From Eubacterium sp. (GTDB lineage: Bacteria; Bacillota; Clostridia; Oscillospirales; Acutalibacteraceae), in contig JAFUEH010000014.1 in the NCBI GenBank assembly GCA_017463985.1, forward strand, positions 1 to 64,000: a DNA stretch of 64,000 nt, read 5' to 3'. The position numbers were made by a program, and so were the translations under genes. Under the pieces are notes generated by a model. It was not told the origin of the DNA. It was given only the letters and a program-made list of their open reading frames with translations, and did no database searches. Positions 51,253 to 52,598 of this stretch are shown here, in pieces. The stretch's first letter is position 1. Each line of letters starts with the position of its first letter.

Positions 51253-51257
51253 CATAA

Positions 51258-51452
51258 ATCCGCACATCCGCCGACACTGAAGATAACCTGCCGTTATACG
51301 CAGGTGGGCTTCATCCCGTAAGCTTTGTGCTCCCAGCGTCCTGCACCGTCAAGGCGGAACAGGGAGGTCTGCATACCCACAGACGGAGCATGAATCCCGT
51401 TTCATTTATTGTTCGGGTTATTAAAGCGTCGGTTACCGTGATGCGCAGACAT
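51258..51452 (-). ncRNA. ssrS: 6S RNA-like structured RNA
   Basis: On the minus strand the ends pair as CTGCGCATC (51448-51440) with GATGTGCGG (51268-51260), with CCGAC/GTCGG just inside. A long distal hairpin is visible (CTCCC...GGGAG with GTTCCGCC/GGTGCAGGAC inside), and single-stranded stretches lie between. A closing stem, large internal bubble and distal arm of about 195 bases fit 6S RNA, which binds housekeeping RNA polymerase in stationary phase. The stretch has no open frame and ends in a terminator. The exact ends are approximate. The family was judged by eye and memory of related genomes, not by a covariance search. Confidence 0.62.
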
Positions 51453-51474
51453 TAATCTACTTTGTTCTTATTGT

Positions 51475-51866: not shown

Positions 51867-51934
51867 TAATATTCTTAAGAATTAGACACTTGTGCATTAT
51901 GATGAAAATATTTTAAAAAAGTGGAAAAAAGTTG

Positions 51935-51963
51935 TTGACAAATTACAAAAAGTATGCTATTAT
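51935..51963 (+). promoter_or_regulatory. Promoter of the large structured RNA
   Basis: A consensus TTGACA (51935-51940) and TATTAT (51958-51963) are 17 bases apart. This is one of the strongest promoters in the window, yet no normal gene follows. Confidence 0.88.
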
Positions 51964-52042
51964 CTAGTTGAACTTAGAGGTAAGCTCAAATAGAAAGAAT
52001 AGAAAGAGCTGCAGTTCAAATAAACAAAGGAGGGCTAATCCA

Positions 52043-52090
52043 ATGGGCAGTGAACCAAAGAATTTAGCCACCTGTACAGTATCTCAATAA
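52043..52090 (+). CDS. Mini-ORF 1 in the structured RNA (15 aa)
   Basis: AGGAGGG ends 8 bases before an ATG that opens MGSEPKNLATCTVSQ. The initiation signal is excellent but the product is tiny. Two further boxes give MDS (ATG at 52362) and MDNC (ATG at 52460), each with a well-spaced Shine-Dalgarno. Translation is unproven. Confidence 0.35.
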   Translation: MGSEPKNLATCTVSQ

Positions 52091-52475
52091 AATAACGGTC
52101 AGCTTAATCGACAGAGGTAAAACGGAATTACCTACGGATTAAATCTTGTGTAAGAAAAAAATAGTTATTGACAGGGTTGAGGCAGTACTTACAGGTGTAG
52201 AAAAGTGAATAATAAGGATATATAAGATTATTTTCCTGTCGGTAATCAGAGCCGATATAGCTCTATAAAAAAGTATCAGTTATTATAACACCAATTATTA
52301 AGGCAAGTCCGAATTTTTAGTGAGTACTTTAGAAAATCATCAATTATTCGAGGGAAATCCAATGGACAGTTAAAGCATATTGATGTTATATCAATGAACC
52401 AAGAAAACAAAATAAAATGAATTCAGTTTAACAATCCACAGAAAAACGGAGGATATCCGATGGACAATTGTTAAC

Positions 52476-52510
52476 GCTCCCAATCGTAAAGAAGGTTGGG
52501 AGCTTTTTTA
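52476..52510 (+). terminator. Terminator of the structured RNA
   Basis: GCTCCCAA and TTGGGAGC form a perfect 8-bp stem with a 12-base loop, followed by TTTTTTATT. The third SD-ATG box ends only 1 base before it. Confidence 0.92.
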
Positions 52511-52569
52511 TTGTCTATTGTTAATTGTAAATATTGCATGAATATTATTAACATTGTGTTAACAAACCC

Positions 52570-52598
52570 TTGACCTCTTCCTGACAGCTTTCTATAAT
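52570..52598 (+). promoter_or_regulatory. Promoter of the yicC-remA-gmk operon
   Basis: TTGACC (52570-52575) and TATAAT (52593-52598) are 17 bases apart. An inverted repeat TTAACAttgTGTTAA lies just upstream. Confidence 0.87.

Follow-up and report, generated by a model that had tools for sequence, protein, structure and literature searches.

Between a consensus promoter and an intrinsic terminator in the window (the whole stretch of 64,000 nucleotides analyzed here) lie ∼540 bases without an open reading frame of normal length. What kind of gene is this, and what could its transcript do? The earlier note had described a discrete, ordered RNA that may bind ribosomes at several sites, and sequence analysis supports that description. 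The sigma-70-type promoter (positions 51935 to 51963) reads TTGACA-17-TATTAT, matches the consensus at 11 of 12 positions, and carries a TG ahead of the −10 element. This extended −10 promoter and the A/T-rich stretch upstream of it together occupy 51905 to 51963 on the forward strand, with transcription predicted to start near 51970. The terminator (52476 to 52509, forward strand) consists of a hairpin at 52476 to 52503 followed by a T run. The putative RNA gene, from this start to the end of the terminator, thus covers 51970 to 52509 on the forward strand; with both signals matching their consensus, we infer that it is transcribed. It does not look like a protein-coding mRNA, as the longest widely conserved frame within it, ORF1, has only ∼15 codons. 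The minimum-energy fold of 51970 to 52512 (z = −2.76, with none of 100 shuffles as good) contains the claimed stem spanning ∼120 bases. A second copy of the promoter-region sequence is present in the same genome (G000:C26:136081-136144; 77% identity over 64 bases), possibly as the promoter of another abundant RNA.

The note had also proposed membership in the large ornate RNAs, which a search with Infernal and Rfam did not bear out. A cmscan of the window RNA gave no Rfam match at gathering score and, at a relaxed E value, at most matches below the families' curated scores; over the RNA in 16 loci (the window's own included) and in 20 relatives, there was no Rfam match either. The covariance models of OLE, GOLLD, ROOL, and raiA matched neither the window nor these 16 loci and 20 relatives, and 6S RNA (RF00013) had no match over the RNA region itself. 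We therefore found no confident match to a known family, and the boxes described below do persist in relatives.

Within the genus, blastn returned matches in 48 of 80 genomes, and 45 of them are the RNA; the three loci dropped were two short promoter-like matches (L100, at a contig end, and L104) and a 23-base match elsewhere (L106). Forty-four of the 45 copies, the window's among them, formed an alignment (A2) from which a covariance model (R1) was built; L091 was left out because of Ns, here and in the analyses of box spacing and openness (60 RNAs), and a run of Ns likewise excluded L142 from the set of 61 transcripts. R1 recognized one copy per genome in 60 of the 80 genus genomes (44 of 51 high-quality ones), including 16 copies outside the training set. 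Among the seven high-quality genomes without an R1 match, G224 has a diverged copy, contigs of G217, G260, and G267 end within ∼110 nucleotides (nt) of the DUF1292 gene that normally precedes the RNA, and G223, G265, and G234 have no DUF1292 match either; thus, no clean absence has been demonstrated in the genus. In the middle three (loci L296, L297, and L299), breaks this close to the DUF1292 start give the impression that the RNA gene is difficult to assemble. Most of the longer blastn matches within the genus include the promoter-containing stretch at 51905 to 51963, and a promoter of the window type precedes all 45 blastn copies and, by script, 12 of the 16 further ones. A script located a terminator-like hairpin in 40 of 41 copies, in three cases (L055, L057, and L090) only beyond 650 bases, and the 3′ end of 53 of 61 transcripts carries it in the CTCC...GGAG form. 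In the wider family, R1 had matches in 7 genomes out of 300: five belong to the genus and the other two to sister genera, so that 3 of 135 genera are represented. Phages gave no blastn match to the window RNA, and viral contigs gave no match to one box pattern.

The most lasting feature of the RNA is an array in its 3′ part. As claimed, three ATGs in the window (52043, 52362, and 52460), each behind a Shine-Dalgarno sequence and immediately preceded by TCC(A/G), start frames that, with the ATG included, are 15, 3, and 4 codons long. The first frame is ORF1. Box 2 (52350 to 52373, forward strand) reads GAGGGAAATCCA followed by ATG GAC AGT TAA, with its ATG at 52362, and box 3 (52447 to 52474, forward strand) reads CGGAGGATATCCG followed by ATG GAC AAT TGT TAA, with its ATG at 52460; the latter frame ends two bases before the terminator, just ahead of it, as the note had said. 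With up to 3 mismatches allowed, the box pattern matches only these three places in 64 kb, compared with a mean of 0.28 in shuffles, none of which (0 of 100) reached three.

Relatives keep both the boxes and their micro-frames. When boxes were picked in the 3′ regions of 61 RNAs by a Shine-Dalgarno sequence and CC(A/G)ATG, blind to any stop, we obtained 138, with the consensus Shine-Dalgarno, (U/A)CC(A/G)AUG, stop. The first in-frame stop follows after one codon in 99 boxes, two in 28, three in 1, four in 7, five in 1, and 11 in 2, i.e., within four codons in 135 of 138. Dinucleotide shuffles yielded on average 2 (at most 7) Shine-Dalgarno-preceded ATGs that stop after one codon, versus the 99 observed. 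These 99 are two-codon minigenes in the usual sense (Shine-Dalgarno, AUG, one sense codon, and stop); the window's own boxes, with frames of 3 and 4 codons, are not. The immediate stop is TAA in 70, TAG in 20, and TGA in 9, and the second codon is TAC in 63 of the 138 boxes and GGC, CAC, TTC, GAC, AGA, or others in the rest. The +1 frame departs from neutrality: a stop is its third codon in 49 of 138 boxes, for the most part because in 45 of the 99 boxes with an immediate stop a second one lies four bases further (e.g., TAAGTAA and TAATTAG); the +2 frame has no comparable peak among the 138. Judging from the exchange of stop codons, the longer frames that still end in frame, and the second stop, selection appears to act on termination and not on a fixed RNA motif. 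At the level of sequence comparison, these data establish the RNA gene and its fold, the selected start codons, the in-frame stops, and their spacing, and the reading of the arrays as conserved and translated-looking is well supported.

Spacing within the arrays has a floor. Across 60 RNAs with one to four boxes each, none of 95 start-to-start distances is below 45 nt (least, 45; median, 53). When the first and last boxes of the 31 RNAs with at least three boxes were held fixed and the inner ones placed at random, an average of 27 distances fell below 45, and none of 2,000 simulations was free of them. Tandem duplication of units of about 50 to 56 nt (e.g., in L035) accounts for part of this regularity, so that some of the 95 distances depend on one another. 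In other genera, arrays that differ in sequence (G133, G037, and G024) have no distance below 49, and one pair outside the genus (L280) is 44 apart. On the simplest reading, the spacing would let neighboring boxes be occupied simultaneously.

Computation did not bear out two predictions of ribosome docking. The predicted openness of the boxes is no greater than that of the remaining 3′ region (unpaired probability, 0.40 versus 0.43), and their pairing with what we take to be the 16S tail, a sequence for which 7 genomes were searched without a match, does not exceed that of ordinary genes (mean, −10.4 versus −11.7 kcal/mol). An idea of “super-strong” 16S pairing was accordingly rejected, total pairing being no greater than in genes. 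The trailing UCC of the box is able to pair with GGA of the presumed tail, and CC at −3/−2 is uncommon at ordinary starts (1 of 51 window genes). A self-hairpin (GGU..ACC or GGA..UCC) that masks the Shine-Dalgarno sequence was also discarded: these positions do not covary, the observed values being close to expected ones.

Similar arrays occur beyond the genus, where the R1 core is no longer recognized. Of 150 family genomes, 128 yielded a DUF1292 gene, and 123 of these 128 fall outside the three genera in which R1 has matches; 85 upstream regions from the 123 were examined, and 83 were kept after two short ones were dropped. On the strand diverging from DUF1292, 29 of the 83 regions have at least one micro-ORF box, 12 of these have at least two, and 54 have none. 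The opposite strand of the same regions gave 4 with one box and none with two or more, and shuffled regions gave a mean of 0.2 (maximum, 2) with at least two. The richest array (L198 in G133) packs 12 boxes into ∼730 bases upstream of DUF1292; six open a start-stop frame and six keep GGTGAGTCC without an ATG, the two kinds partly alternating, suggesting that selection acts on docking rather than on the peptide. In G037, six boxes lie within ∼500 bases of the promoter, with little else.

A wider search of the order with an exact 16-base box pattern, again blind to stops, gave 25 matches in 16 of 295 genomes. In a second family (f26), all 13 matches in the 6 searched genomes of genera g162 and g172 stop within two codons, and the two loci examined in full have a divergent DUF1292 gene (Pfam). 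The remaining 12 matches, in 10 genomes, include one in G595 (also f26) that stops after 5 codons and one in G526 that stops after 1; these ten genomes look like background, since a reversed control pattern matches 6 genomes. A stricter pattern, which itself requires the stop, was run over 84,980 species genomes and returned 22 stretches: 19 titled as Clostridia or as a clostridial family or genus, two as “Firmicutes,” and one as “uncultured bacterium.” Merdimmobilis hominis, whose strain An559 has the array, is the one cultured carrier among the 19. Fifteen of the 22 contain a further micro-ORF, and 11 have DUF1292 divergently upstream.

The 5′ part forms a structured domain. Its conserved structured core, R1 (52083 to 52252, forward strand), scores 151.2 bits (E value, 7.2e−25) in the window, which is one of the 44 training sequences. 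A covariation test on relatives, suggested in the earlier note, gave strong results in this domain: in a structure written by hand on the 44 sequences of A2, 92.3% of cells are paired, and 28 of 35 pairs have changes on both sides. The covariation score is 0.429, versus 0.184 for shuffles and at most 0.090 when the structure is slid by 1 to 3 columns; the double changes are the safer evidence, since the structure was read off the same alignment, so that the slid controls favor it. A pseudoknot joins GACAGG (52170 to 52175) to CCTGTC within a hairpin loop (52235 to 52240), both on the forward strand; in the general form GNCAGG/CCUGNC, 97.6% of its cells are paired and all 6 pairs covary by changes on both sides in A2, five of them proposed independently by RNAalifold. 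ORF1 (52043 to 52090, forward strand; MGSEPKNLATCTVSQ*) opens at ATG 52043, and its 3′ end forms the 5′ strand of a long helix. Counted after the ATG, its length is 14 to 16 codons in 53 RNAs and 9 to 13 or 18 codons in the remaining 8 of the 61, and the peptide often retains EPxQT, with prolines encoded by CCA, CCT, and CCC.

The locus also has recurrent neighbors. A divergent DUF1292 gene (PF06949; 51475 to 51792, reverse strand, in the window) precedes the RNA in 59 of 61 loci, and in the other two, the RNA starts within ∼130 bases of a contig end. Behind DUF1292 and on its strand lies a 6S RNA (51253 to 51454, reverse strand; 44.7 bits, E value of 9.1e−8), which Rfam does not report by default because its score is below the gathering score of 46.4. 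At a relaxed threshold, 6S RNA stands behind DUF1292 in 15 of 20 relatives; at the curated one, it does so in 7 of 16 loci, 6 of them outside the genus, of which L256 and L279 have identical scores and may be one species. Such a neighbor would be in keeping with an RNA that helps shut down or store the translation machinery.

Our preferred reading, to which we assign a probability of about 0.45, is that the gene encodes a stable RNA whose function resides in the tandem array of start sites and which acts as a store of, or brake on, ribosomes. Ribosomes or initiation complexes would load side by side on the array, at a pitch of ∼45 nt or more. A loaded ribosome would produce no more than a very short peptide before stopping and could then reload, with the next box one ribosome's width away. 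Because loading occurs on frames that are mostly stopped after one or two codons, the RNA would occupy ribosomes while yielding no protein, and we infer a role in ribosome occupancy and titration. It might thus store or slow ribosomes as the neighboring 6S RNA occupies RNA polymerase. The structured 5′ domain and ORF1 probably set stability or timing, as a ribosome that reaches the stop of ORF1 would intrude into the long helix. With one to four boxes per genus RNA, few ribosomes would be held unless the RNA were very abundant. Two-codon frames do burden translation when overexpressed, according to PMC8708949.

Other explanations share some of this evidence. The micro-ORFs may serve to keep ribosomes on the 3′ part as a shield against nucleases or early termination, the functional element being the 5′ domain. 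Its strong covariation agrees with this, as does the precedent of a mini-ORF site known to protect an mRNA from RNase E (from a title cited in PMC8708949) and of a two-codon minigene proposed, in the same article, to stabilize txe mRNA. We consider this unlikely, however, since the 5′ domain is the less lasting part, with R1 confined to 3 of 135 genera while arrays are also present in other genera and in a second family, and since the boxes of G037 and G024 begin soon after the promoter. It is somewhat more doubtful that the product matters, be it fMet-dipeptides, the ORF1 peptide, or a basic peptide of 9 to 13 residues as a signal or ligand, or peptidyl-tRNA drop-off that depletes tRNA. The preference for TAC as the second codon, the EPxQT motif of ORF1 kept through different proline codons, and the basic peptide kept through synonymous and start-codon changes (see below) would suit such a role, and overexpressed two-codon minigenes are described as depleting tRNA in PMC8708949; on the other hand, second codons vary widely, the long middle frame occurs in only 25 RNAs by hand labels, and some boxes, in G133, have no start codon.

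Those same G133 boxes, a short motif repeated with or without ATG, would be expected of a sponge for an RNA-binding protein that recognizes GGU-N4-5-UCC, as in CsrB, with the start codons incidental. This is improbable: a protein motif leaves in-frame stops of three kinds unexplained, and CsrA itself was rejected as the partner, being found in 0 of 60 genus genomes by a search whose control was positive in Escherichia coli, Bacillus subtilis, and Thermotoga maritima. Least probable of all, in our estimate, is a cis-regulator, one that either attenuates the gene downstream or interferes transcriptionally with DUF1292 and 6S RNA. The conserved divergence from DUF1292 is in its favor, but the RNA is closed by a terminator in nearly all copies, and the gene beyond changes: of 61 loci, 20 have a mannitol dehydrogenase-like gene there, 3 a sigma factor gene, 1 yicC, and 37 another or an unassigned one.

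How does a ribosome-occupying array compare with known systems? Phage lambda bar is a two-codon minigene, and it, the LEE1/ler leader, and axe-txe mg2 share with the boxes a Shine-Dalgarno sequence, AUG, one sense codon, and a stop, a near-empty frame that is translated; here, several start-stop frames are instead arrayed in a seemingly free-standing RNA. The LEE1 and axe-txe minigenes act in cis on the gene that follows (PMC8708949), whereas the terminator after the array and the changing downstream gene would speak against such action here. Leader-peptide attenuators likewise have a short ORF that overlaps one strand of a long helix, as ORF1 does, but in our RNA a terminator follows and no downstream gene is constant. 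6S RNA binds RNA polymerase; although the RNA region gave no 6S match, the proposed logic, a start-site mimic that occupies a core machine, is the same, and the 6S gene lies near. Sponge RNAs of the CsrB/RsmY type carry many copies of one short binding box, whereas the boxes here hold reading frames, in genomes where CsrA was not found. OLE, GOLLD, ROOL, and raiA are likewise long, structured, and conserved bacterial RNAs; to our knowledge, they are not defined by start-stop boxes. Single, cis-acting two-codon minigenes are thus known, and free RNAs built from rows of them were not found in the literature searched, which did not extend to the supplementary lists of large RNA screens. The RNA core is possibly already among unnamed predictions, such as the 3161 candidates of PMC8040213.

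If ribosomes really dock on it, this would be a bacterial RNA that manages ribosome supply as 6S RNA manages RNA polymerase, in little-studied gut Clostridia, and its natural arrays of two-codon frames would make initiation, termination, and recycling directly accessible to study. Such RNAs matter for annotation too, as they are missed by gene finders that rely on a normal ORF, and Rfam 15 reports none of them.

Some boxes carry a longer middle frame of 9 to 13 codons that encodes a basic peptide (MLRKFIV..K; MKNRKPFNIKEIIM), retained despite synonymous and start-codon (ATG/TTG) changes. With the frames labeled by hand as present in 25 RNAs and absent from the rest, PF02482, a hibernation factor (HPF) family, is missing from 18 of 21 genomes with the long frame, versus 1 of 27 without it (Fisher's P of 3e−9, uncorrected for kinship). 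Judged by the well-supported branches of the DUF1292 tree, itself a weak one, the group with both traits requires no fewer than 4 changes, a count that rows of unknown HPF status may inflate. The association is striking though phylogenetically entangled, and it fits the shutdown or storage of the translation machinery. HPF loss as the general reason for the RNA is ruled out in the genus, where PF02482 is present in 38 of 60 genomes; the window's own genome encodes a PF02482 protein, and hibernation there thus need not depend on the RNA. Taken further, the preferred reading becomes a tentative proposal, which we hold with less confidence than the reading itself: a new class of bacterial regulatory RNA that serves as a ribosome decoy, built from tandem start-stop sites, and as the translational partner of 6S RNA, near which it is often encoded. 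It would buffer free ribosomes at growth transitions and, in lineages where HPF was lost, have gained a conserved basic micro-peptide in one box.

The gene next to the RNA in the window, yicC, was said by the note to have its own promoter, and a promoter-like site is indeed present at 52570 to 52598. A connection between yicC and the RNA was rejected: with flanks of up to ∼1.5 kb (less on short contigs), YicC adjoins the RNA in the window alone among 61 loci. The gene thus appears to be an accidental neighbor, the recurring partners being the divergent DUF1292 and the 6S RNA behind it. Near the RNA locus in L055, L056, L156, and L289, T-box leaders are found.
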